A stretch of 24,199 nt of DNA from a virus, in IMG/VR virus record IMGVR_UViG_3300028840_001407, positions 1-24,199 of that record; one strand, written 5' to 3'. The notes beneath the pieces were generated by a model, which searched no databases, was not told where the DNA came from, and was given only the letters and a program-made list of their open reading frames with translations. Shown one piece after another: positions 12,798-24,088 of this stretch (within the stretch, counting starts at the first letter, position 1; every line of letters starts with the position of its first letter). The translations under genes and the position numbers were made by a program.

Positions 12798-14884
12798 TGG
12801 CCGACCATCCCTGGCGGCAAGCCGCCTGTCTGATTGTTAAATCGTTCGCCCGTCATCGGATTGTTGGGCATGTTGGGCATATTCACGCTGGCCGCCTTCT
12901 GCATCAACGGCGTCTGTGGATTCAACGCGGGCATCGGTCCAGGCGGCGGCCCACCCATTCCAGGTTGGCCAGGTGGCGGCGCGGGCTGTGGCTTCGGAAC
13001 CTGTGGCTGGCCGTAAAGAGACAGCAACACAGGATTCCCGTTCTGCAACGCTTGGATATGCGCGTTGATGTGATCCAACGTCTGTTTGACGATCTTGGGG
13101 TTCTGGCGGGCCTCTGGGCTAGACAGAACAACGCCATGTTCGACAATGTGCAACCGATGGTCGTCTGTGTCGATGGCCATGACCTTTTCGCCTTCGCCCA
13201 TCCGTTCGTTTTCGGCCCGTATCAGCAACATTTGGGCTTGCTGACCTTCAATCATGGGTTCCAGCTTCCCTGTGTTCAAAAGCGTGATATATTCGTCCTT
13301 CTCCCGCACCATGCCCGCATTCAAAAGCTGATCGGCAATTTGCATTCGCCCCGCCACTGTCCTGGACAACGGATTGCCCAAGTCGACCGTTACCCGATCA
13401 ATTTCGGACAAGTCCTGGCCCGTAAACTCTTTGATGTAGGACCGATTGGCCTTCCCAGCGATCATGGCCATTCGTGGCGTCTTGGCGTTGTCTTTGAGCA
13501 AATCAACGATGGCGGTCCCAATGTCTTCCATAAGCTGGGCGTATGATTGCTGTAATCCTGAATTGAATTGGATCGCCTGACTGGCCACCAACGCCAGCGC
13601 GGCCCCAGACTTCAAGGACGCTTCTGGATTGCCCCTGGTTACGGAATTGACGCCAGACAGCGTTTCCATAAGGGCTTCCAATTGCTGGATGAATGAGAAG
13701 ATTTCTTGCGGCGTGTTGGTGAGGTTCAGCGGCTTTGGTTCACCCGCCTTCGGATTGTATTTGATGAGGTTCAGCCCGCCAGCCAGTTCGGTAACACCGA
13801 TGTTGGCCCCGTCAGGCATCAAGATGTTTTGGACGCCGAAGGTGGCTTGGTTTGTCAAAACGGTGCTATAAAGCGCGTCGATTGCCTCTTGTAACGCCAG
13901 TAAGTCCCAAGCAATAGTGTATCCAAAAGGGGACCCGTCTTGTTCGGATGACGTTGTGCGATAAACGGGAATCCCTTTGGTCGGCAACGGGCCTTCGGTG
14001 GTTACGATCTCTGACGAATAGAATTCCACGAATCGGCCTTGCGGCACCGCTGGGGTCTTCCTGTGGTAGAACCGATATTTCGGTATCGAATCCTTTTCGT
14101 CCACCGTAAACGGTCGGCCAAGCCGCCGTTCCTTCCACATAGCGGGATCAATCGAAAGCGTCAGAATCTTGTCGGCCAGGTCTGGGAATTTGACGGCCTC
14201 ATCGTATTTGTTGACGAATTCCCGTGTGATGATCCAGTTCCCTTCAACGAATGAGTTTTCGGAGTAAGGACGGATGATATCAACGGGATGAAAGTTTTTG
14301 ATGCGGATATCGCCCTGTTTGTATGGGCGGGCCAGGTCGTTCGGGTTCGGCGCATAATCCTGGCCTAAATTCGGGTCCCACGACACTTCCACGAATCCTT
14401 CGCTGGCGTATAAAGCGTCTTCGATGGCCTTCTTTGAATAGCGTTCGACCCGCAAGTGTCGATTGTAGAATTCCAGGATGCCGCTGGCCACAATCGTTTG
14501 GCTCTGGCTCTTGTAATCGGTGTTTGTGGCATGTGGCTCAAAGCTGGGACGCTGGGACGTGGTGTTGTTGACAAGGTGCTGAATGATGTTGCGGTAGTGG
14601 TTGATGTAGATTGTATCGTATTCGTCTTGTGCGCCCGTCTTCTGGATGCGTGCGCCCCGTTGCTGGCCGTTGAAATAGTATTCGTAGGATCGCGTGTAAA
14701 GCCGCCATCGGCCTGACGTGGCCAGGTATTCGTAATAGTCATCGACCCGCTTCATCAATTCCTGGCCGATATCCTCAAAAGGTTTGTTGGCAAAGTATTC
14801 GTCAGCGGGATCATTGGTCCGATCTTCGCCTGGATATTTTAGTGGCGCGTCATTTGGGTTTGATCTAGCGATTGATCCAGCCAC
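12794..14884 (-). CDS. Portal protein, P22-like (696 aa)
   Basis: At 696 aa the length matches the long portal class of P22 (725 aa) rather than the roughly 500-aa lambda/SPP1 types. The N-terminal half has the wing-type pattern with YYEYLATSGRWRLYTRSYEY and NTTSQRPSFEPHA. The middle has the helical stem/crown region with IQQLEALMETLSGVNSVTRG (about 420-440). The last roughly 70 residues are Pro/Gly/Met/Asn-rich (PPPGQPGMGGPPPG) and probably disordered. As the dodecameric ring it connects the head to terminase during packaging and to the neck afterwards. It overlaps the terminase stop by 20 bases and the next gene by 4 (ATGA). Family and location agree well. Confidence 0.88.
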   Translation of the reverse strand: MAGSIARSNPNDAPLKYPGEDRTNDPADEYFANKPFEDIGQELMKRVDDYYEYLATSGRWRLYTRSYEYYFNGQQRGARIQKTGAQDEYDTIYINHYRNIIQHLVNNTTSQRPSFEPHATNTDYKSQSQTIVASGILEFYNRHLRVERYSKKAIEDALYASEGFVEVSWDPNLGQDYAPNPNDLARPYKQGDIRIKNFHPVDIIRPYSENSFVEGNWIITREFVNKYDEAVKFPDLADKILTLSIDPAMWKERRLGRPFTVDEKDSIPKYRFYHRKTPAVPQGRFVEFYSSEIVTTEGPLPTKGIPVYRTTSSEQDGSPFGYTIAWDLLALQEAIDALYSTVLTNQATFGVQNILMPDGANIGVTELAGGLNLIKYNPKAGEPKPLNLTNTPQEIFSFIQQLEALMETLSGVNSVTRGNPEASLKSGAALALVASQAIQFNSGLQQSYAQLMEDIGTAIVDLLKDNAKTPRMAMIAGKANRSYIKEFTGQDLSEIDRVTVDLGNPLSRTVAGRMQIADQLLNAGMVREKDEYITLLNTGKLEPMIEGQQAQMLLIRAENERMGEGEKVMAIDTDDHRLHIVEHGVVLSSPEARQNPKIVKQTLDHINAHIQALQNGNPVLLSLYGQPQVPKPQPAPPPGQPGMGGPPPGPMPALNPQTPLMQKAASVNMPNMPNNPMTGERFNNQTGGLPPGMVGQ

Positions 14885-16337
14885 GATTCCTCCTTCTCAC
14901 TCCGATGATCTTTTCGATTTCAACACGCGAAGGTTCCCGCTTCTTGTCGAATTCGGCTGAAATATGGTGCGTAAGCTCTGACATGTGAAGGTCCGCTGGA
15001 ATCGGATTCGTGTATTGGTCGATGTTGCGGACCAAGTAAACCAGCGCGGCCAGCCCGTCAAAATGCCCGTAGACTTTGGACCTGGCAAATTCCCGCTTTC
15101 TTTGTTTGTTAATGTCCCAGACGCCATATTTAAGGCATCCTATCGTGTGGGCGCAACGTGGATTCAGGTTTACCCGCCCATTCCCAACCCAAACCCTCAA
15201 TTCGTTCACCATGGCATCCAGGTTGTCCTTCGTCGTTGGGTTGAACGGGATTTGGTGCAGATATCCCATGTCCTGGATCAAGATTAGGTTGTTGTCGTCG
15301 CTCACCCGAAGGATTTGATCTGGGGTCTTGTCTTTGAACCATATCGCTTCCTTCGCCTTGATTGCTCTTTGTAGCAAATCCGAAGTCATAGTCGGCCCCT
15401 TCATTACCAGTTCGTCTTCGATGAATAGGGCCGCTTTCATAAAATCGTAATACCCGAATAGAACCACCGTGAAGTCCCGCACTCCAATGTCCATGCTCAC
15501 ATAGCACTTGTAATAAGGCCAAAGGGCTGTCCGTTCCCAAGGTAGGGTGTGCTTCTTTTCGTCGAATTCTGGGATGATCGCCAGGTCTTGATCCACGACG
15601 AATTGGCACAGATATTCCCGTTTCCAGGTCGATGATTCGGCCCCCCCTGACTCCTTCATAAACTTCTGGATTATGTGATCGGGATAGCCCGAATCGAAGA
15701 TCGTGAATTCGCTGTAAGTCCCTTCCTCTTTGGCTTTGTGGGCGAAGTCCACAAATTCGTGAACGGGTGTCGGTGGCGGGGTTGATGAAATGATGATTCG
15801 GCCTTCGGTTGTCAGGCATTGGGGCAAGAGAATGTCTTGAACCACGTAATCCAAGTCGTCCACGTAGCCCGCTTCGTCGACTATCGCCAGGTCCGAGGCG
15901 TTTCCGCGAAGATTTTCGGCGTGGCCAGCGTTCAAGCCCGACAAGTGAACCAATGAATCGGTGCGCGGGAAGTAGTAGGCAAAGTCGGACGCTTGATATT
16001 GCGGCTTGTAGTCGGCTGGACAATCGCGGATTATGTAGCGAAAGATCGGCTGGATTACTTTCTTTAATGCACGCTGGGAAGGAAAGCCAAAGTGGATTTG
16101 TGCGCCTGGTTTTTTCATCGCCGCTTCGATGGCTATTGTGCAAAGCGTGTGCGTTTTTCCGATCCGACGGGAAGCGTTGATGACCTCTTTTAGTGAATCC
16201 GATTCCCGAAGGTGGTTGTAAATCTTTTCTTGGACAGGCCGTAGCTTCCAACGGATTTCACCCCTTCGCCACAATTCGTTTTTAAGTTCGTGTTCCAGCG
16301 CATCACGGTCTTGCTGATTCACGTTCTTTGTCTTCAA
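14865..16337 (-). CDS. terL: Terminase large subunit (490 aa)
   Basis: This is the ATP-driven packaging motor and headful/cos nuclease. Visible motifs: Walker A-like SRRIGKT at residues 56-62, Walker B LAIVDEAGY (150-158, catalytic DE at 154-155) and coupling motif IIISSTPPP (181-189). In the RNase H-like nuclease domain, acidic residues occur at SMDIGVRDFTVV (D283), VSDDNNLILIQDMG (D347/D348 and D356) and YGHFDGLAALVYLV (D427). Length and motif order are standard for Terminase_6/TerL proteins, so it appears intact. Its start overlaps the small terminase by 35 bases, and its end overlaps the portal by 20. It acts at the portal vertex together with TerS. Confidence 0.95.
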   Translation of the reverse strand: MKTKNVNQQDRDALEHELKNELWRRGEIRWKLRPVQEKIYNHLRESDSLKEVINASRRIGKTHTLCTIAIEAAMKKPGAQIHFGFPSQRALKKVIQPIFRYIIRDCPADYKPQYQASDFAYYFPRTDSLVHLSGLNAGHAENLRGNASDLAIVDEAGYVDDLDYVVQDILLPQCLTTEGRIIISSTPPPTPVHEFVDFAHKAKEEGTYSEFTIFDSGYPDHIIQKFMKESGGAESSTWKREYLCQFVVDQDLAIIPEFDEKKHTLPWERTALWPYYKCYVSMDIGVRDFTVVLFGYYDFMKAALFIEDELVMKGPTMTSDLLQRAIKAKEAIWFKDKTPDQILRVSDDNNLILIQDMGYLHQIPFNPTTKDNLDAMVNELRVWVGNGRVNLNPRCAHTIGCLKYGVWDINKQRKREFARSKVYGHFDGLAALVYLVRNIDQYTNPIPADLHMSELTHHISAEFDKKREPSRVEIEKIIGVRRRNRGWINR

Positions 16338-17667: not shown

Positions 17668-17817
17668 TTAAATACTACGATAGAATTTATTTTTCTTTCT
17701 TCTGGAACGTTTTACAAGAGCAACGGCGACTGTCGTTATGCCCAAGATGGGACATACACATGCCAGAAATATAGCCGTGGGCGTCTTTGTGATGGCCGCA
17801 AACACAGATTCCATCAT
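17668..17817 (-). CDS. Possible single-span membrane microprotein (49 aa), ATGA-coupled
   Basis: The frame begins MMESVFAAITKTPTAIFLAC. It starts in an ATGA overlap with the preceding 77-aa gene and ends in the space before the next promoter. A hydrophobic segment (about residues 12-36) is followed by a strongly basic tail (KRSRRKKNK), the positive-inside pattern of a small membrane protein. Its coupling is the same as at most other junctions. It occupies almost the same DNA as a Cys-rich frame (17687-17905), so only one may be expressed, or both. Confidence 0.4.
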   Translation of the reverse strand: MMESVFAAITKTPTAIFLACVCPILGITTVAVALVKRSRRKKNKFYRSI

Positions 17818-17905
17818 TCCTTCCCGTTGGTTGTGGTTCCGATTGTAGGATCAGCTTCTTTGTCGAATTTCGCTGATAAAAATTCAACGATCGCTTGAAT
17901 CGCAT
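17687..17905 (-). CDS. Cys/His-rich frame, probable zinc-binding protein (72 aa)
   Basis: Residues 34-67 read ICVCGHHKDAHGYISG...C......RRCSCKTF, that is C-x-C-G-H-x4-H ... C ... C-x-C-x-x-F, a recurring arrangement of small zinc-binding phage and bacterial proteins. The ligands would be C34, C36, H38/H43, C50, C62 and C64. The only upstream ATG (17905) makes it overlap the 77-aa gene by 92 bases, and there is no good ribosome binding site. It must therefore start at a non-ATG codon, be reached by frameshifting, or be a fortuitous frame. The regular spacing of Cys argues against fortuity. See the competing 49-aa frame. Confidence 0.5.
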   Translation of the reverse strand: MRFKRSLNFYQRNSTKKLILQSEPQPTGRNDGICVCGHHKDAHGYISGMCMSHLGHNDSRRCSCKTFQKKEK

Positions 17906-18047
17906 GTTTTGGTTCCCATAGGGCCTGTTGCATGATGGCGTCGGTTCGGCAAGCGTCCAGGTCGTAACCTTTGTCGCGGTGAATGGCCAGCGCGGTGAGT
18001 TCGTCGATTTCTTCTTTGACGCTCATTTTTTTTTCGTTGTCTGTCAT
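17814..18047 (-). CDS. Hypothetical small protein (77 aa; possible shorter start at 18026)
   Basis: This is a mostly helical, soluble protein: EEIDELTALAIHRDKGYDLD is followed by ACRTDAIMQQALWEPKHAIQ and a polar tail. Two starts are possible: MTDNEKKMSV at 18047 or MSVKEE at 18026. The second lies right after a run of nine A and would form an ATGA overlap with the upstream gene if that run had ten. The stop overlaps the next ATG (ATGA). Composition and size match the many unannotated small host-directed proteins of this region. It is not recognised. Confidence 0.55.
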   Translation of the reverse strand: MTDNEKKMSVKEEIDELTALAIHRDKGYDLDACRTDAIMQQALWEPKHAIQAIVEFLSAKFDKEADPTIGTTTNGKE

Positions 18048-18210
18048 ATTCGGTTTTTAACTCCTTTTTTCGATCTTTTAACGCTTGAATGCACAGCCGA
18101 TGGTATTCGATTTGTTCGTTGAAGGCCAATTGTTCGCCGATATAGCGACTTCTGTCCATTCCCGTTGTCGAAATTCGTCGTCCGTGTCGAATTTGATTTA
18201 ATGTTGTCAT
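17884..18210 (-). CDS. Hypothetical charged helical protein; frame disturbed at an A9 run (real product probably about 62 aa)
   Basis: The first 61 residues (MTTLNQIRHGRRISTTGMDR ... RKKELKTEYDRQRKK) look like a genuine basic/charged helical protein starting in an ATGA overlap. After a run of nine A (T-run at 18026-18034 on the + strand), the frame continues for about 47 residues that are only the out-of-frame shadow of the next gene (Arg/His/Gly-rich). One extra A, or a one-base slip, would end the protein immediately at TGA, overlapping the next ATG exactly as at other junctions. I therefore suspect a sequencing/assembly indel or transcriptional slippage. It is not recognised. Confidence 0.45.
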   Translation of the reverse strand: MTTLNQIRHGRRISTTGMDRSRYIGEQLAFNEQIEYHRLCIQALKDRKKELKTEYDRQRKKNERQRRNRRTHRAGHSPRQRLRPGRLPNRRHHATGPMGTKTCDSSDR

Positions 18211-18298
18211 TGATCCCTTGATGCCACCCGCAATTGGTGCAGACGCCGCCTACCAACGGTTCGTTGCACCAAAAGCAAGTGGGCGCCGCGAATATGCT
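18044..18298 (-). other. Hidden zinc-ribbon reading frame without a normal start
   Basis: Directly after a TGA (18301-18299), a frame stays open for 84 codons. Its first part reads APTCFWCNEPLVGGVCTNCG: C-x2-C-x8-C-x2-C (18277-18230), a textbook zinc ribbon. No ATG, GTG or TTG precedes the first Cys; the first TTG lies between the two Cys pairs. The frame overlaps the accepted genes 18207-18395 and 17884-18210. It could be reached by a +1 shift from the upstream 62-aa frame, or be explained by an indel in the sequence. Confidence 0.4.
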
Positions 18299-18395
18299 TC
18301 AAATCGGCTTCATCAAATGTTGTCAGGATTCCGCACACGTAGCCAACTTTGTGAATATGTTCCCATAATAATTTTTCTTTCCAATCGCGATTCAC
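18207..18395 (-). CDS. Hypothetical protein with GTG start (62 aa), conflicted C-terminus
   Basis: It starts at GTG in a GTGA overlap with the preceding gene and stops in an ATGA overlap with the next. The first 35 residues (MNRDWKEKLLWEHIHKVGYV...) look like a genuine folded or amphipathic segment. The remaining 27 (Arg/His/Leu-rich, RTVGRRRLHQLRVASRD) look like a shadow of the zinc-ribbon frame at 18230-18277. The real protein may thus be the first half joined to the zinc ribbon. Both ends nevertheless obey the coupling rule, so the simple frame cannot be dismissed. Confidence 0.45.
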   Translation of the reverse strand: MNRDWKEKLLWEHIHKVGYVCGILTTFDEADLKHIRGAHLLLVQRTVGRRRLHQLRVASRDQ

Positions 18396-18613
18396 TTATT
18401 TTCGCTCACTGGGCTATTGGCCTTTGCCATCCATATGCGCCACTTTGTAACCAAATCCTTGATTTCTTCTTCGACGGCTTCCATGAATAAGTCCAATGCG
18501 GATTCAAACGGCATGTCTTTACCGCGAAGATTGTTGTCAACGCCGCGTAGGATATCCATTCGCATTTCGACTTCTCTGTCGATTTCTTTTTGAAGGTCTT
18601 CACGTAATTGCAT
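18392..18613 (-). CDS. Acidic helical protein (73 aa)
   Basis: I start it at the ATG at 18613 (MQLREDLQKEIDREVEMRMD), which overlaps the preceding 25-aa microprotein by 14 bases; a longer frame from 18664 would run over that microprotein. The protein is almost entirely helical and acidic, with heptad-like spacing (AVEEEIKDLVTKWRIWMAK), so a coiled-coil or DNA-mimic-like role is possible but unproven. Its stop overlaps the next GTG (GTGA). No membrane segment or Cys is present. Unknown function. Confidence 0.5.
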   Translation of the reverse strand: MQLREDLQKEIDREVEMRMDILRGVDNNLRGKDMPFESALDLFMEAVEEEIKDLVTKWRIWMAKANSPVSENK

Positions 18614-18677
18614 GATACCACCAACCACAGACGGCACAGACCCACTTATCGCCGCGCAATTCATATTCGTGCCTCAT
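18600..18677 (-). CDS. CxxC microprotein (25 aa)
   Basis: The frame MRHEYELRGDKWVCAVCGWW plus YHAIT begins in an exact ATGA overlap with the 172-aa gene. It has the sequence style of a half zinc knuckle (W-V-C-A-V-C-G-W). Similar 'WxCxxCGW' segments occur in the 31-aa gene at 19646-19741. The size is too small for gene finders, but the coupling and the strongly non-random composition support it. It could bind zinc as a dimer or with a partner protein. Confidence 0.45.
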   Translation of the reverse strand: MRHEYELRGDKWVCAVCGWWYHAIT

Positions 18678-19192
18678 ACAAAGTCCCCCCCTATCGCCGC
18701 CGACGGAAACCAGTTCACTTGGTCTTTGTCCCATCTGGTTCCGAACCGAACGGACACCATGTCTTTGATTGTGAAATCGCCTTTCTCTGGATAGGGAAGC
18801 GGTTTAGCCCACGGCCAGAACCAATGGAAGCTGACGCCCCATCCAAGCCCCAGTGATCCAGGCGCATACGTCAAAAGGAAGTGGGCGCGGCTCCAATACT
18901 GGACGACGGATGGGAAGTAACCGTCTTCCTGTAAGACGGCCACCGTTTTTGGATTGTCAAATTTCCTGTCCTTCAAATACAAGTCTGGGTGTTTAAGGTG
19001 TTCCCACCGCTTGACGCCGTATCCGAATTTCAAAACAGGTTGTTGCCACCTGGCCCACCAATGTTTTGAGCGCGGGCCGTAGGCAAACCAGCCCTTAATC
19101 TTGATCCATGACCGCTGAAACCAATTGTCCCAATCGGTCCCTTCCCATTCGTGCGGCTCGTTGATGTGTTCTGGTAGAGCATCCCAAGGCAT
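18674..19192 (-). CDS. Trp-rich hypothetical phage protein (172 aa)
   Basis: I start it at the ATG at 19192, which forms a TAATG overlap with the upstream Cys-rich gene; a longer frame from 19330 would duplicate that gene's coding region. The protein has an unusually high content of Trp, Phe and Tyr (WDNWFQRSWIKIKGWF; GWGVSFHWFWPWAKPLPY). It ends with a pattern reminiscent of a small beta-sheet phage family ('VSVRFGTRWD...NWFPSAAIGGDF'). No catalytic residues, signal peptide or hydrophobic segment long enough for the membrane is obvious. I recall similar Trp-rich proteins in environmental phages but no function. Confidence 0.55.
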   Translation of the reverse strand: MPWDALPEHINEPHEWEGTDWDNWFQRSWIKIKGWFAYGPRSKHWWARWQQPVLKFGYGVKRWEHLKHPDLYLKDRKFDNPKTVAVLQEDGYFPSVVQYWSRAHFLLTYAPGSLGLGWGVSFHWFWPWAKPLPYPEKGDFTIKDMVSVRFGTRWDKDQVNWFPSAAIGGDFV

Positions 19193-19449
19193 TATTGTTC
19201 CCACTTCGCGCACGCTTGCCAGAAAACGCGGTGGTCCGTTGCGGGGCCATGTGTCATTTTCCGAAGGTCGCATTTGTAATAGGTTCGATTTGATCCACCA
19301 TGTCCATGAAGGTGTTTGCAATCTTTGCATGGGCGCGGCGGCTCATACTTCCCATAAAGGTTCACACACGGATTTTCGTTAGGTTTCGGTGCCATCTTTT
19401 CGGCGTCTTCCAGCGTGTGTTTTCCGAAAATCAGCCGTTGTTCGCTCAT
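19192..19449 (-). CDS. Cys-rich probable metal-binding protein (85 aa)
   Basis: Conserved-looking Cys/His residues are C28, C41-x2-C44, H47, C60 and C80, in the order 'PPRPCKDCKHLHGHGGS ... YYKCDLRKMTHGPATDHR ... ACAKWE'. This is the pattern of a recurrent small phage protein family with a four-Cys metal site and a 'C.L...T.G..TDHR..W.AC..' tail. The metal is probably structural zinc. Function unknown; such small proteins are often host-directed early factors. It starts in an ATGA overlap and ends in a TAATG overlap. Confidence 0.6.
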   Translation of the reverse strand: MSEQRLIFGKHTLEDAEKMAPKPNENPCVNLYGKYEPPRPCKDCKHLHGHGGSNRTYYKCDLRKMTHGPATDHRVFWQACAKWEQ

Positions 19450-19664
19450 TTTTTCAATCCCTTGGCCACGTCGTTGGCATCACGAAGTTTCGACAGGAAG
19501 TCTTCGGCCTGGTTTCGATCAAACATCACTTGGATTGTCGGCGTGTTCGGAATCTGGATGATAAAGCCGATCCGTCCGCGAATCTTTTCATCTGGGGCTT
19601 GGCCAATAATCTGGATCGGCGGGTTTTCGTAATTGAAGTGTGGCGTTACTTGGAAGCTGAACAT
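19446..19664 (-). CDS. Hypothetical small alpha/beta protein (72 aa)
   Basis: The start ATG at 19664 (MFSFQVTPHFNYENPP) is chosen because GAGGGGGG lies just upstream; the longer frame from 19733 runs through the 31-aa microprotein. The protein has two or three strands (IIGQAP, RIGFIIQIPN, TIQVMF) followed by an amphipathic C-terminal helix (QAEDFLSKLRDANDVAKGLK). It is small and soluble with no recognised motif. The arrangement resembles compact beta-beta-alpha folds of phage accessory proteins. It overlaps the preceding gene by 19 bases and the next by 4. Confidence 0.5.
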   Translation of the reverse strand: MFSFQVTPHFNYENPPIQIIGQAPDEKIRGRIGFIIQIPNTPTIQVMFDRNQAEDFLSKLRDANDVAKGLKK

Positions 19665-19741
19665 GGTTCCCCCCTCATGTCGGCGTAGATGCCTTCGGAT
19701 GGTTCGGCGTAATGCCACCCGCACGCTGTGCATGTTCTCAC
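19646..19741 (-). CDS. Cys-containing microprotein with GTG start (31 aa)
   Basis: The GTG at 19741 overlaps the preceding stop (GTGA), with AAAGGA four bases upstream. The product (MRTCTACGWHYAEPSEGIYA plus 11 residues, ending in CSASK) has C-x2-C and one further Cys, suggesting zinc binding or a redox role. A longer ATG frame runs through the preceding gene and looks like its shadow. The EGIYADM segment resembles EGIYDAV in the neighbouring 41-aa protein, possibly through duplication. Confidence 0.45.
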   Translation of the reverse strand: MRTCTACGWHYAEPSEGIYADMRGEPCSASK

Positions 19742-19863
19742 TTTTCCTTTTGCCCGTAAATGGATTCCGCTGTTATTTTTTTCTGTCCAATCACGGCATC
19801 GTAGATGCCTTCGTAAACAACGGGTCCATGGCACAGGTGCGGCTTATCGTTTGTTGTTCTCAT
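19738..19863 (-). CDS. Small protein (41 aa)
   Basis: The ATG at 19863 (MRTTNDKPHLCHGPVVYEGI) overlaps the upstream gene by only 20 bases, while the longer frame from 19926 would overlap it by 83. It has one Cys and two His near the middle and a YEGIYDAVIGQKK segment that reappears in the next gene as SEGIYADMRGE. It ends in a GTGA overlap with the next start. No hydrophobic segment is present, and function is unknown. The small size lowers confidence. Confidence 0.4.
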   Translation of the reverse strand: MRTTNDKPHLCHGPVVYEGIYDAVIGQKKITAESIYGQKEK

Positions 19864-20080
19864 ACTGGATTCGCCTGAATGTTTTTTTGATGCTCTTTTG
19901 GGATTTGCGAAGCGTTGGGAGTTCATGCAGATTGGCGGTTGCTTTCAACCGATTCAGAATCCATTCGTTCTTGGTTATCTTTTCGTGAAAGGCGGTTCGC
20001 GTAATCCATTCGTCTTCGTCAATGGTGGCCATGAAGATAATGGGAACGTGTCGTTTTAGTCCAATTGGTAAGCGTGGCAT
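19844..20080 (-). CDS. Basic hypothetical protein (78 aa), first gene after terminator/promoter
   Basis: The start is the ATG at 20080 (MPRLPIGLKRHVPIIFMATI); the longer frame from 20119 begins inside the terminator hairpin and lacks support. No Shine-Dalgarno is present. The gene lies 9 nt after a -10-like hexamer, so it is probably near-leaderless. The N-terminal third is hydrophobic/basic. The rest is basic and helical (HEKITKNEWILNRLKATANL, then KSQKSIKKTFRRIQYENNK), suggesting nucleic-acid binding. No motif identifies a family. Confidence 0.45.
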   Translation of the reverse strand: MPRLPIGLKRHVPIIFMATIDEDEWITRTAFHEKITKNEWILNRLKATANLHELPTLRKSQKSIKKTFRRIQYENNKR

Positions 20081-20089
20081 ATTGAATTT

Positions 20090-20119
20090 ATTAAAACATA
20101 AAAAAACCCCCGCCGTCAA
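20090..20119 (-). promoter_or_regulatory. Probable sigma70-type promoter overlapping the terminator
   Basis: Minus-strand TTGACG at 20119-20114 (5 of 6 to TTGACA), an 18-nt spacer and TTTAAT at 20095-20090 (5 of 6 to TATAAT). The ATG of the next gene follows 9 nt later at 20080, so the transcript would have almost no leader. The -35 touches the terminator's 3' arm, and the terminator T-run lies within the spacer. Confidence 0.55.
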
Positions 20120-20147
20120 TTGGGGGCAACCAAAAAACGGGCGGGGG
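20100..20147 (-). terminator. Rho-independent terminator (minus strand)
   Basis: The two arms 20140-20147 and 20107-20114 (+ strand ggcggggg and cccccgcc) form an 8-bp GC stem. The loop is about 25 nt and can itself pair partly (gggggc). On the minus strand seven T follow (20106-20100). It separates the lipoprotein/membrane group from the next group of small genes. Confidence 0.7.
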
Positions 20148-20168
20148 CTGGATTGATCGTCGTTCGAT

Positions 20169-20327
20169 CTAATCCAAATTAAAATCGTCGGCTATGTAGA
20201 TCACCTTCGGCATTTCCTGGCCACGTGGAACCGTAACCAGCTTATGATCGAGGATGCCTTGTAGAAGCATACCCAAAACCATCGCAACGGCAAAGGCGAT
20301 GACAACGTTCTTTGTTCGTATAGGCAT
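20169..20327 (-). CDS. Single-span membrane protein (52 aa)
   Basis: I start it at the ATG at 20327 with AAAGGACGG upstream; the longer frame from 20390 lies in the Cys-rich gene. After six basic/polar residues (MPIRTKN) comes a transmembrane segment (VVIAFAVAMVLGMLLQGIL, 8-26). A short exposed tail follows (VTVPRGQEMPKVIYIADDF). A basic N-terminus before the helix suggests the tail faces the periplasm. It is the last gene before the terminator at 20.1 kb. It overlaps the Cys-rich gene by 127 bases, an unusual amount. Confidence 0.5.
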   Translation of the reverse strand: MPIRTKNVVIAFAVAMVLGMLLQGILDHKLVTVPRGQEMPKVIYIADDFNLD

Positions 20328-20590
20328 TCTAAACACCGTCCTTTCCACATGTAGGCGTTTCCGTGGTCTTTTGGTTTGTCGCCGCACCATTCCCCGTCGT
20401 CAATCCAGGAATCCAATTGGTCTTCGCAACACTGGAAGTCGCCCAGTTCGGCCAGTTCAGCGACTTCGCCGTTTCTCATGTGGTGATCGTGGCAATCTTC
20501 ACAATTGCATTCTTCTGGGCATTTCGGTTCTGGCGGGTCCAGCCATCGGTCGTAGGCCGCGTCGGCCCCTGGGGTATCAAATAGTCTCAT
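20201..20590 (-). CDS. Cys/His-rich acidic protein (129 aa)
   Basis: It starts in an ATGA overlap with the lipoprotein gene (MRLFDTPGADAAYDRWLD). Clustered metal-type ligands are C24, C28, C30, C33, H34, H36, H37 (CPEECNCEDCHDHH) and C54-C55, C69, C86, C89. The sequence between is acidic. The C-terminal third (about 92-129) is largely the out-of-frame image of the next membrane gene, so the functional part is probably the first 90 residues. The ligand density suggests two zinc sites or a metal-storage role. It is not recognised. Its 127-base overlap with the membrane gene is noted separately. Confidence 0.5.
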   Translation of the reverse strand: MRLFDTPGADAAYDRWLDPPEPKCPEECNCEDCHDHHMRNGEVAELAELGDFQCCEDQLDSWIDDGEWCGDKPKDHGNAYMWKGRCLECLYEQRTLSSPLPLRWFWVCFYKASSIISWLRFHVARKCRR

Positions 20591-20934
20591 CGGTAGGCCC
20601 CCTTCACGATGACGTTGTTTTCGATCCAGAATGTCCACACCTGGCAATCTTGGCGCGTTGGAATTGGAACATTTCTGGCAAACACTGAATAATCAGAGCC
20701 ATAAAGCGTGTAACCGCCACGTGATTGGCAATACTGGTATTCGTAGATTTCCTGGCCGTCCAGATCAATTGTTCGGTGGGGAACGCCCCATGTGTTGACA
20801 AGGTTGGCTTTGTTGCCGCCCATCCAAGAATCGAGAACGTCCCTATTTGTTTGCGGTCTTTGCTGTTGGTAGGGTGCCTTTAAGGCGGCGCACCCGACGA
20901 AAAGGAATAGAAGTGGGATTATTGCCATCTTCAT
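20587..20934 (-). CDS. Phage lipoprotein (115 aa)
   Basis: The ATG at 20934 (MKMAIIPLLFLFVGCAALKA) is supported by an ATGA overlap with the upstream gene. It gives a textbook lipoprotein signal: Lys2, a hydrophobic core, then the lipobox F-V-G-C with Cys15 as the lipidated residue. The mature part contains NLVNTWGVPHRTIDLDGQEI, resembling a small lipoprotein domain seen in bacteria (W-G-x-P-x-R...). It then ends in strands with Cys residues (EYQYCQSRG, TRQDCQVWTFW) that may form a disulfide in the periplasm. It is likely displayed in the envelope; superinfection exclusion or a lysis-related role are plausible but unproven. Confidence 0.65.
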   Translation of the reverse strand: MKMAIIPLLFLFVGCAALKAPYQQQRPQTNRDVLDSWMGGNKANLVNTWGVPHRTIDLDGQEIYEYQYCQSRGGYTLYGSDYSVFARNVPIPTRQDCQVWTFWIENNVIVKGAYR

Positions 20935-21116
20935 AGCACACCCCCAAACAGGGTATAAATCCCCATTCCAAGAGCGAACAACATTCCGAAGATTAACAAC
21001 GTGAGGTAGGCCGTAATGAATTGGTCCCGCCAATACCCTGGTTGCTTCCGTTCCCATTCACGGTATTCGCGGTCTTCTTCTTCGCGCTTCCAGTATTCGT
21101 ATTCTTTTGTGTTCAT
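20931..21116 (-). CDS. C-terminal-anchored membrane protein (61 aa)
   Basis: The ATG at 21116 (MNTKEYEYWKREEEDREYRE) is preferred over 21128 because GGGGG lies 7 nt upstream of it. The N-terminal 36 residues are extremely charged (Glu/Arg/Tyr). A transmembrane segment (FITAYLTLLIFGMLFALGMG) fills the C-terminal half. This is a tail-anchored topology with a charged cytoplasmic head. It overlaps the lipoprotein by 4 bases, so the two are probably partners, for example an inner-membrane and an outer-membrane component. It is not a classical spanin pair, because the anchor is at the wrong end. Confidence 0.5.
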   Translation of the reverse strand: MNTKEYEYWKREEEDREYREWERKQPGYWRDQFITAYLTLLIFGMLFALGMGIYTLFGGVL

Positions 21117-21185: not shown

Positions 21186-22031
21186 TCAATGCTTTTTTGA
21201 AGACATTTTTTCGCCTATTGTTTTCAGGGCGTCTTGGACCACCTTATCTGGCATTATCTTGGTGTCTTGCAACAAATGTGCCTCATAGATTTCGGCCCCC
21301 CGCTTCCAGGCGTAATTGTCAACCAGGGTTGGAATGTGGCTCACGAAGGCCGAAAACGAATAGCCCGTGGATCGCACCCAGTCGTTTGAGGATTGCAGAA
21401 AATCGTCCCAAAGAGCCATGACGCCCCATGGCTGGTAGGTGGCCGCCAGGGATTTCAGGGTTTTGTATTCCTGTGGCCTCATAAACAGCTTGGCCTTCTT
21501 CTTCCGTTCCCACATGTCATGTAAGTGCTTCACCATGTCTTGCCAAAACGGGGTGGTTTCTTCGTTTTTTGGTTTTTTGGCCTTTTTGGAGTTATCCACA
21601 GGGTTATCCACAGCGGTGGATAAAGAGTCTTTATTACGGTTAGGTAAGGTTATGTTAGGTAGGCGCGTTTTTCGGCTTTGTTCGGCTTTATTCGTCGTTT
21701 TGCACCGCGCAATCTTCTGGCGATAAAGTCTGTCTTTCACTATTTTTCCAGCGTAGTCGGACCAATCGTGAACCTTCATCCCATCAAGCCATCCACACTT
21801 TTGTAGTGCCTCTAAAAATGTGTTTGGGTCTTTTTTCCAATCGCACGCCGCGCATATCGAGTGCGCGGAATAGCGCGTCAGGTCCGCGTCGCGCCAGGCA
21901 TAACGAAGCGTAAAATGCCACAATAGATGCAACAATCCGACCGCCGCGTGTTTTTCAACACCTAGCATCGCCGCCAGTTCAAAAACCTTTGGGTGATCTG
22001 ATAAATTATCGTGTGATTCGATCCAAGCCAT
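21186..22031 (-). CDS. Replication initiator / replisome organiser-like protein (281 aa)
   Basis: The N-terminal domain (about 1-120) matches the winged-helix domain typical of phage replication initiators: MAWIESHDNLSDHPKVFELA, then GLLHLLWHFTLRYA, LDGMKVHDWSDYAGKIVKDR. A Lys/Asn/Ser/Pro-rich linker (about 125-165) is followed by a helical C-terminal domain (PFWQDMVKHLHDMWERKKKA; LWDDFLQSSNDWVRSTGYSF). It would recognise the origin and recruit host helicase loader or primase. The linker DNA holds DnaA boxes, as the origin of lambda lies in gene O. The start is the ATG at 22031, 7 nt after a -10-like hexamer; a longer frame from 22112 begins in the terminator. Confidence 0.75.
   Translation of the reverse strand: MAWIESHDNLSDHPKVFELAAMLGVEKHAAVGLLHLLWHFTLRYAWRDADLTRYSAHSICAACDWKKDPNTFLEALQKCGWLDGMKVHDWSDYAGKIVKDRLYRQKIARCKTTNKAEQSRKTRLPNITLPNRNKDSLSTAVDNPVDNSKKAKKPKNEETTPFWQDMVKHLHDMWERKKKAKLFMRPQEYKTLKSLAATYQPWGVMALWDDFLQSSNDWVRSTGYSFSAFVSHIPTLVDNYAWKRGAEIYEAHLLQDTKIMPDKVVQDALKTIGEKMSSKKH
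21565..21661. other. Probable origin of replication inside the initiator gene
   Basis: Two perfect DnaA boxes TTATCCACA (21592-21600, 21604-21612) lie next to an opposing near-perfect box (21615-21623, ggtggataa). Three T-tracts lie immediately to the left (21565-21570, 21573-21578, 21583-21587), and to the right is a direct repeat gttaggta (21639-21646, 21654-21661). This is the expected mix of initiator boxes, iterons and an easily unwound tract. Confidence 0.6.
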
Positions 22032-22038
22032 GTGATTT

Positions 22039-22066
22039 ATTCTATAAAAAAAAGGGCCGCCCGCAA
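22039..22066 (-). promoter_or_regulatory. Probable promoter for the initiator gene
   Basis: Minus-strand TTGCGG (22066-22061), a 16-nt spacer and TAGAAT (22044-22039), followed after 7 nt by the ATG of the initiator. The -35 match is poor; the -10 has 5 of 6. No Shine-Dalgarno is present, so the mRNA would be leaderless. The elements overlap the terminator in the same way as at 20.1 kb. Confidence 0.4.
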
Positions 22067-22079
22067 GGGAACGGACGGC
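22046..22079 (-). terminator. Rho-independent terminator (minus strand)
   Basis: The arms 22072-22079 (cggacggc) and 22056-22063 (gccgcccg) pair with one G-U around an 8-nt loop. They are followed on the minus strand by CC and eight T (22053-22046). The stem ends exactly at the stop codon of the upstream gene, so termination immediately follows translation. Confidence 0.75.
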
Positions 22080-22285
22080 TAATAATTTTTGAGCCAATAC
22101 CGACGAAGCCACAGATCAATGTCGGCGTGCGGGACCTGTATTCCTTCGCCATGTAGGTTTTCCAGCCAAAAAGAATCATTGTCAAAATACGAAACAAAGT
22201 ATGATCCGATGTGGACACGCGGGCCGTCCAAATCTGGAATTCTTTTCAGAACGGGAGTTCGCCTTGTCTTTTTCCGCGCGCCCAT
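22079..22285 (-). CDS. Small hypothetical phage protein (68 aa)
   Basis: The start is the ATG at 22285 (MGARKKTRRTPVLKRIPDLD), with GGTGAGGG directly upstream; the longer frame from 22369 overlaps the previous gene. After a basic 20-residue N-terminus there are strands and a final helix (FWLENLHGEGIQVPHADIDL). That part resembles a small family repeatedly seen in early regions of phages ('sFWIE...GEGMQV'), for which I know no function. A basic tail suggests DNA contact. Its stop lies in the terminator stem. Confidence 0.55.
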   Translation of the reverse strand: MGARKKTRRTPVLKRIPDLDGPRVHIGSYFVSYFDNDSFWLENLHGEGIQVPHADIDLWLRRYWLKNY

Positions 22286-22756: not shown

Positions 22757-22965
22757 TCTTCTAACCTCTCTACGATGTAATCAACATAATTCCCAGATTT
22801 CCCAGTGAATTTTAAGTGGTCCACGACATATTCAAGCGCGATGGCCAATTTCTTCGCCTTCTCAATGGCTTCTATATACCCTTCGGCGCGCCAGAGATCG
22901 ACGGAATCAATTTCGCCTGGAATAATTCCGCATTTGATTATGTTTTTGGCGTCCTTTTCGTTCAA
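22738..22965 (-). CDS. Hypothetical protein (75 aa)
   Basis: This is a predominantly helical soluble protein: MNEKDAKNIIKCGIIPGEID, then DLWRAEGYIEAIEKAKKLAI and a final charged helix (DYIVERLEEWEKTK). One Cys (residue 12). It starts in an ATGA overlap with the preceding gene. The composition resembles short regulatory or adaptor proteins, but no family is recognised. Confidence 0.5.
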   Translation of the reverse strand: MNEKDAKNIIKCGIIPGEIDSVDLWRAEGYIEAIEKAKKLAIALEYVVDHLKFTGKSGNYVDYIVERLEEWEKTK

Positions 22966-23174
22966 TGAGTTTCCTTTTTCAAATCGTTAATGACCCTATC
23001 CAATTTTTCGGCCTGTGATATTTCTTCGCAAACACAAATGTTGACGTTATGATCGCATGGGCCGCAATCGGTAATCATCGTTTCAAAATACAACCTGACG
23101 CTTTCAAGGTTATCGATCCATTCGCGCTGTCGAATTTGCCGATTCGTCCAGCTAGGCATCGGCCCTTTATTCAT
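22962..23174 (-). CDS. Small Cys-containing protein (70 aa)
   Basis: Between two helical parts lies DCGPCDHNVNICVCEE (near residues 36-51), i.e. C-x2-C ... C-x-C with a His, a likely zinc or disulfide site. The N-terminus is polar with a Trp/Arg helix (PSWTNRQIRQREWIDNLESV). The start overlaps the preceding gene by 8 bases, and the end is an ATGA overlap. It may be a regulatory zinc protein, consistent with the many Cys-rich small proteins elsewhere in this phage. Not recognised. Confidence 0.5.
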   Translation of the reverse strand: MNKGPMPSWTNRQIRQREWIDNLESVRLYFETMITDCGPCDHNVNICVCEEISQAEKLDRVINDLKKETH

Positions 23175-23532: not shown

Positions 23533-23766
23533 TCAATTTCGATTTCGGAAAACATTCTTTTCTTCCTTCTTCCATCGGTCGCGATAGTATTTATCTGTGG
23601 CTTTTCCGTCCGTCCATTCGTCCATATTGAACAATTGTTTCAATTCGTTTGCCCTACAAGGATGGCGCATTTTACGAATAGCCCTTATTTCAATTTGCCT
23701 AATCCGATCCCTTGTTACTCCAAAAACTTTTGATATTTCTTCATATGTGCATGGAATCTTCAACAT
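23533..23766 (-). CDS. Sigma70 region 4.2-only protein (77 aa)
   Basis: Residues 6-40 ([20 protein letters not shown], then [10 protein letters not shown]) are an unmistakable sigma70 region 4.2 helix-turn-helix, the part that reads the -35 element (compare '[28 protein letters not shown]'). Regions 1-3 and 4.1 are absent; a charged tail ([20 protein letters not shown]) follows. It may compete with host sigma for the core beta-flap, act as an activator or guide polymerase to phage promoters. The start at 23766 (ATG) is preferred; TTG at 23781 is possible. It overlaps the XRE gene. Confidence 0.75.
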
Positions 23767-24088
23767 CGTTTTTGTGTTCAATCAACTTTTGTGCTTCTTC
23801 TGAATTGTATGGGAGAATAAATTGCTCTGGATTTATTTCACGAACGATCCGATTGCTTTTAATTCCCTTCAATTCCTCTGGAAATAATTCGTCGATTGTT
23901 CGTTCAAAGTAATCCGCTATCTTCTTCGCATCCTCTACGCTTATGGTATGCAATTGTTCCGCTTTTTGATAAACATTAACCCTGATCCCAATTGCTTCGG
24001 CCATCTGAACCTGTGTCAATCCAGCTTCCAGTCTTCTTTTCTTTATGAGATTGTTTCTTAATAATAATGTCGCTTCAATTGACTTCAT
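23741..24088 (-). CDS. XRE-family transcriptional regulator (115 aa)
   Basis: It starts at the ATG at 24088, which forms an ATGA overlap with the nuclease gene; a longer frame from 24145 would overlap that gene. Residues 13-60 are a Cro/CI-type helix-turn-helix: [20 protein letters not shown], then [20 protein letters not shown], followed by a short helix linker '[16 protein letters not shown]'. The C-terminal 45 residues lack the LexA/CI protease signature, so it is not a self-cleaving repressor. It could act as an early repressor or anti-repressor controlling the minus-strand operon. Confidence 0.75.

Follow-up and report, generated by a model that had tools for sequence, protein, structure and literature searches.

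A dense island of small Cys-rich genes between the replication and packaging genes of a tailed phage, a likely accessory module of the lambda ninR type

The window analysed here is the 24,199-base IMG/VR virus record IMGVR_UViG_3300028840_001407. It belongs to a tailed phage with a P22-type portal and carries, between the DNA-replication and DNA-packaging genes, an island of small genes (17668-20590, minus strand; A to M below), several of which encode proteins with closely spaced Cys pairs. The island looks like a mixed delayed-early accessory set. It is likely to be a module of the same type as the lambda ninR region, its Cys-rich members being small zinc-binding proteins of unrelated families. 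The evidence consists of the position of the island, the coupling of its genes, an excess of Cys motifs, the conservation of the Cys residues in two families and an enrichment of Cys pairs in relatives, two of which carry NinG or Lar in the corresponding interval. The genes are probably expressed, probably at a delayed-early time, and zinc binding by the Cys-rich products is probable too. Taken as a whole, this is an ordinary phage accessory region, if an unusually dense one. Its value lies in gene G, which represents an uncatalogued family of zinc type whose members stand beside replication genes in phages and prophages from several phyla of bacteria.

Position and build of the island

All likely genes lie on the minus strand. 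Read as transcribed, the gene order on the matching 36.5-kb genome (see below) opens with an early part that encodes a nuclease, a RecT-like protein, an exonuclease-like protein, an XRE regulator, a sigma-70 region 4 protein and small proteins. There follow the replication initiator, a lipoprotein-like gene, the island, a small-terminase-like gene, the terminase large subunit (TerL), the P22-type portal and the major head protein. The RecT, exonuclease and nuclease names come from reading the sequences, not from a profile search. Upstream of the island, the replication initiation protein (Rep; 21186-22112, -) matches phrog_9474 (E 4.5e-32); downstream, TerL (14865-16337, -) matches PF03237 and phrog_2. 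By position, between initiator and terminase, the island consists of non-virion genes. Genes A to M, all frames of which were read, form a chain in which most members are joined by ATGA or GTGA (xTGA) overlaps.

In lambda, O/P and Q flank the ninR region (PMC7166090). The genes of this region are non-essential and can be deleted with plaque formation kept (PMC10695390). The window resembles it in position, between replication and packaging genes on the same strand, and in build, a series of small, overlapping, coupled genes of presumed delayed-early class that follow the replication genes. It differs in that the island ends at the terminase and not at an antiterminator and lysis genes. A reading of the sequence alone had found no known system in this region; the arrangement does match ninR. 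According to the scheme proposed here, the stretch from the replication initiator to the terminase would be occupied, on one strand, by translationally coupled small genes. The Cys-rich members would be collected small zinc-binding proteins, probably acting on DNA (replication, recombination, repair), and some of them on host functions.

Excess of Cys motifs

CxC and CxxC motifs were counted in stretches of 25 or more codons free of stops, with dinucleotide shuffles as the null. The minus strand of the island holds 12 motifs versus 2.9 expected, a count reached by none of 500 shuffles. On the plus strand of the same region there are 3 (6.7 expected), and the structural half of the window has 7 (16.8 expected). 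That several of the frames overlap, and that two have no start, might suggest that the motifs are chance products of overlapping frames. However, the shuffles never reach the observed count and two of the frames belong to conserved families, so that this explanation is very improbable, being largely refuted by the conservation tests. Where relatives exist, namely for G and for the frame at 17687, the Cys residues are kept.

The sequence-only reading listed six separate Cys-rich proteins in the island and a neighbour at 22962. All of its Cys-pair frames are present on the minus strand, above chance, but the positions it took for starts are mostly the low-coordinate (3', stop-codon) ends. Of the six proteins, about four are plausible; two Cys frames have no proper in-frame start and their expression is doubtful. 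Protein A (20201-20590, -; MRLFDTPGADAAYDRW...CPEECNCEDC...CLEC) carries CPEEC, CNC, CEDC and CLEC. No relatives of A were found, tblastn in phages included. E (19646-19741, -; VRTCTACGWHYAEP...) and I (18600-18677, -; MRHEYELRGDKWVCAVCGWWYHAIT) are half zinc ribbons with one CxxCGW motif each (CTAC in E, CAVC in I). They are probably only 31 and 25 residues long, starting at GTG 19741, preceded by the Shine-Dalgarno sequence AAGGA, and at ATG 18677, preceded by GGGGGGG; I is ATGA-coupled to H. The pair CKDC belongs to G (19192-19449, -). A full zinc ribbon (18230-18277, -; CFWCNEPLVGGVCTNC; CFWC...CTNC) lies over K in a different frame, and a zinc-finger core at 17687-17806 (-; ICVCGHHKDAHGYISGMC...CSCKTFQKKEK) carries CVC and CSC. 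The neighbour outside the island, a small protein at 22962-23174 (-) known from ORF (open reading frame) reading and containing CGPCDHNVNICVC, likewise has Cys pairs (CGPC, CVC); tblastn in phages gave no match to it. Membrane peptides had been described as interleaved with these genes. Short hydrophobic, membrane-like ORFs are indeed present at 17668, 20169 and 20931, and the picture of dense, short genes of metal-binding type in the early-to-middle region holds.

The interval in relatives

Cys pairs were counted in the 4 kb downstream of Rep, on the same strand, at 57 loci that encode a related replication initiator. These stretches contain 410 pairs versus 245 expected, and 49 of the 57 loci lie above expectation. 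Very distantly related phages share this excess of Cys proteins behind the initiator gene, a regularity that aids placing unknown phage genes by position. In this interval, locus L009 carries NinG (E 3e-29) and locus L008 carries the Lar restriction-alleviation protein, with a match above the cut-off.

Family G and the sliding clamp

G is an 85-residue protein whose assignment to an unnamed four-Cys phage family comes from its relatives, their alignment and a structural model. A tblastn search detects one annotated relative, gp60 of Parageobacillus phage NIIg3.2 (hypothetical protein). It is 40% identical to G and shares the four Cys, the TDHRVxWxAC core and a position after replication genes, between DnaD/DnaC genes and ArpU and HNH genes, although NIIg3.2 is another phage type. 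Wider searches yielded 20 and then 38 viral loci (the sets overlap) as well as five bacterial genomes, three of Bacteroidota and two of Bacillota judging by their titles. In chromosomes G is rare: two phylum samples contained it in 2 of 398 and in 3 of 395 genomes, and the genome on which each sample was centred is one of those counted. In an alignment of 22 members, Cys41, Cys44, Cys60 and Asp72 are invariant, and Cys80 (at least 90%), His73 and Trp77 nearly so; the four Cys are conserved across about 40 relatives. Neither Pfam, NCBIfam and PHROGs nor the PDB contains a significant match to the family. Sequence comparison indicates a real family that is widespread in phages and uncatalogued in Pfam, PHROGs and NCBIfam. 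Foldseek with a single-chain AlphaFold model of G finds nothing significant in the PDB; among viral models, an uncharacterised protein of a Gordonia phage scores best (E 0.06).

Six loci were read for neighbours of G. They show a replisome organiser, a DnaC-type loader, a Prim-Pol/D5 helicase or a nuclease gene; the replisome organiser and single-stranded DNA annealing assignments near G are from reading, without Pfam support. At L151:3761-4450 (+) the G core is fused to a C-terminal DUF3850 domain (E 5.7e-25), while the Bacteroidota members at L109:7932-8420 and L110:7932-8417 (both +) have an extra C-terminal tail of about 80 residues with no Pfam match.

The N-terminal peptide of the window protein, MSEQRLIFGKHTLED, carries QRLIF, and a hydrophobic-plus-Phe motif is found in the G-family tail that precedes the Cys core. 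The consensus for binding to the bacterial sliding clamp is QL[S/D]LF or QxxLF, the first position being variable in one DnaE class (PMC12309361), and transposases possess the same kind of peptide (PMC4549789). G resembles such peptides in its QRLIF and in the LF/LFG motif of the family tails. It differs from them in that the glutamine is lacking in the majority of the independent relatives. A strictly defined, clamp-like form (Qxx[LMIFW]F or Q[LMF]x[LMIF]xL) occurs in 10 of 19 tails of a first set versus 0.26 in shuffles, the pattern having been written after looking and some members of this set being close kin. Because it was chosen after seeing the first set and weakened in an independent one, the strict Q-type motif was dropped as a claim and the looser LF form was kept. 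The latter, [LIMW]F, is present in 14 of 19 first-set tails. With the pattern fixed beforehand, it is found in 11 of 19 tails of the independent set versus 3.4 in shuffled ones (0 of 5000 reach the count). [LI][FWY]G, chosen after looking, occurs in 10 of these 19 tails versus 2.2% of 462 neighbouring ORFs.

Reasoning from this motif, the mechanism favoured for G is docking on the host clamp, and DnaN is suggested as a concrete partner. Held by the LF motif, the putative zinc core with its four Cys would then stay at the replication fork of the phage, a step that, taken alone, we regard as tentative. The fuller proposal, in which the docked core steers replication or recombination at the fork or displaces host polymerases, is more doubtful still.

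Four results weigh against the view that the island is a ninR-type module of this kind. Cys pairs are also enriched, more weakly, upstream of Rep in the relatives (264 versus 196). Pfam and PHROGs reveal no recognisable Nin, Lar or TraR homologue in the window. The G model is of moderate confidence (mean predicted local distance difference test score, pLDDT, 74) and has no solved-structure match. Finally, the strict clamp-like form is present in only 2 of 19 tails of the independent set (0.15 expected). As no Nin protein was found in the window, we say that the island works like ninR and do not file it as ninR.

Host takeover and counter-defence

The sequence-only reading took the island for a collection of host-takeover or counter-defence factors. 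In that case the small zinc proteins would bind and shut off host RNA polymerase, the clamp or restriction enzymes. There are precedents, since lambda Orf73, a four-Cys homologue of TraR, reprograms host transcription (PMC9239242), and Twort gp168 and G1 gp240 target DnaN (PMC3594737). Lar in the same interval of L008 points the same way, and the N-terminal motif of G could serve as a clamp block. However, searches of Pfam and PHROGs match no window protein to an anti-defence, TraR/DksA or Lar family, and G, in the six loci read, stands beside phage replication genes, where a helper role fits as well or better. Lar and TraR/Orf73 are small zinc proteins like the island members in size, Cys content and phage accessory location. 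The differences are that Lar (PF14354), present in L008, has no profile match among the window proteins, and that TraR/DksA/Orf73 has no Pfam match there, its D-x-x-D N-terminus and CxxC-17-CxxC spacing being absent from the island frames on reading. The window holds no sign of host takeover or counter-defence, and as an account of the whole island this explanation is unlikely. For individual genes either function is possible on the present analysis, counter-defence because a Lar-like protein occurs in the same interval of L008.

The finger at 17687 and overlapping frames

Short proteins that match the 17687 frame occur in L031, L069 and L093; two of them are located just upstream of a related Rep gene. 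In L115 the match is a segment within a viral DNA polymerase III-like ORF. No match was obtained by tblastn in phages or in plasmids. The pattern C.CGH.4H, followed by C and, close to the C-terminus, by a last CxC, is present in the window finger, L031, L093 and L115, L069 having C.CSH instead; both the Cys/His pattern and the C-terminal end are conserved among the relatives. At L115:2833-3640 (+), the CxCGHx4H...CxC segment seems to be inserted in the N-terminal part of a DNA polymerase III alpha-like ORF, between ...KIVKAC and IKPILGCD....

The three separate-gene relatives start 1-5 codons ahead of the first Cys. The coupled ATG of the window, at 17817 and overlapping the stop codon of M, is displaced from the finger frame by one base, and the finger has no such start just before its first Cys. 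Its frame is open back to ATG 17905; the finger may be translated from there, or the gene may be broken. The ribbon over K poses a similar problem, its sole in-frame start codon, TTG 18256, lying inside the ribbon past the first CxxC. The codon score of the ribbon is ambiguous, and tblastn in phages finds no match to it.

These displaced starts suggest that part of the island may be decaying, in which case frameshifts would have left the ribbon and the finger as remnants, and the membrane-type and Arg-rich overlapping ORFs would be by-products. Synonymous-codon scores agree with this insofar as the tails of L (-5.2) and of the ribbon frame (-5.3) appear non-coding and the 49-residue membrane-type ORF from ATG 17817 (17668-17817, -) appears off-frame (-2.0), the finger being undecided (+0.5). 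However, this score has low power (in-frame +1.15, off-frame -1.14, standard deviation about 1.7 per 40 codons) and says little over 30-50 codons. Moreover, no Cys has been lost from the finger frame, which ends at the stop typical of its family; as it is open to ATG 17905, its product could still be made. Partial decay is a credible minority explanation. It is compatible with a ninR-type module, and both can hold.

Programmed frameshifting was weighed from the sequence at L/M, D/E and M/finger (A9 near 18026; GGGAAGGA before 17817). It is not claimed, because D/E has no canonical slippery heptamer and comparative support is missing. The nine-A run, near 18026, lies between ORFs L and M (18010-18050, -); one A fewer would fuse both frames.

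Other features of the island and genome

A coding score computed frame by frame, with the large genes as training set, supports F, J, M, B and D as well as parts of H. At the upstream end of the island, A overlaps the lipoprotein-like gene by ATGA. The head of A has a synonymous-codon score of +2.6, and its C-terminal 40 or so codons overlap B, a 52-residue membrane-type peptide (20169-20327, -), out of frame. A strong intrinsic terminator (20100-20150, -; fold -27.8 kcal/mol, z -3.6, followed by T7) splits the island below B. C (19844-20080, -; 78 residues), recognised by frame reading and the frame-by-frame score, and F (19446-19664, -; 72 residues), with a clear coding signal, have no Cys pairs. 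Between them, D (19738-19863, -; 41 residues, from ORF reading) overlaps the start of E with its stop (GTGA). H (18674-19192, -) is a Trp-rich protein of 172 residues that scores as coding; profile and sequence searches found no relatives. J (18392-18613, -; 73 residues), acidic and helical, rests on its coding score. K (18207-18395, -; 62 residues, from ORF reading) is GTGA-coupled to J and ATGA-coupled to L (17884-18210, -), the last 53 or so codons of which overlap M (17814-18047, -; 77 residues, clear coding signal).

Searches for tRNA and Rfam families in the window found nothing, and promoter-like sites occur at chance level. Megablast of the window against phages gave no match. The sole near match to its DNA is the 36,550-base contig IMGVR_UViG_3300017963_000157, with 100% identity across 19.4 kb. 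Since both ends of that contig carry window bases 20126-20248, its genome (36.5 kb) is circular or terminally redundant.

The lipoprotein-like gene (20587-21057, -; MKMAIIPLLFLFVGCAALK...) lies between the initiator and the island. A small exported protein at L009:3762-4205, in the same interval of that locus, is somewhat similar to its product. The stand-alone sigma-70 region 4 protein (23533-23781, -) is small and is encoded directly behind the XRE regulator, where the early region begins. A strong terminator-like hairpin with T8 (22056-22079, -) is located immediately ahead of the replication initiator gene.

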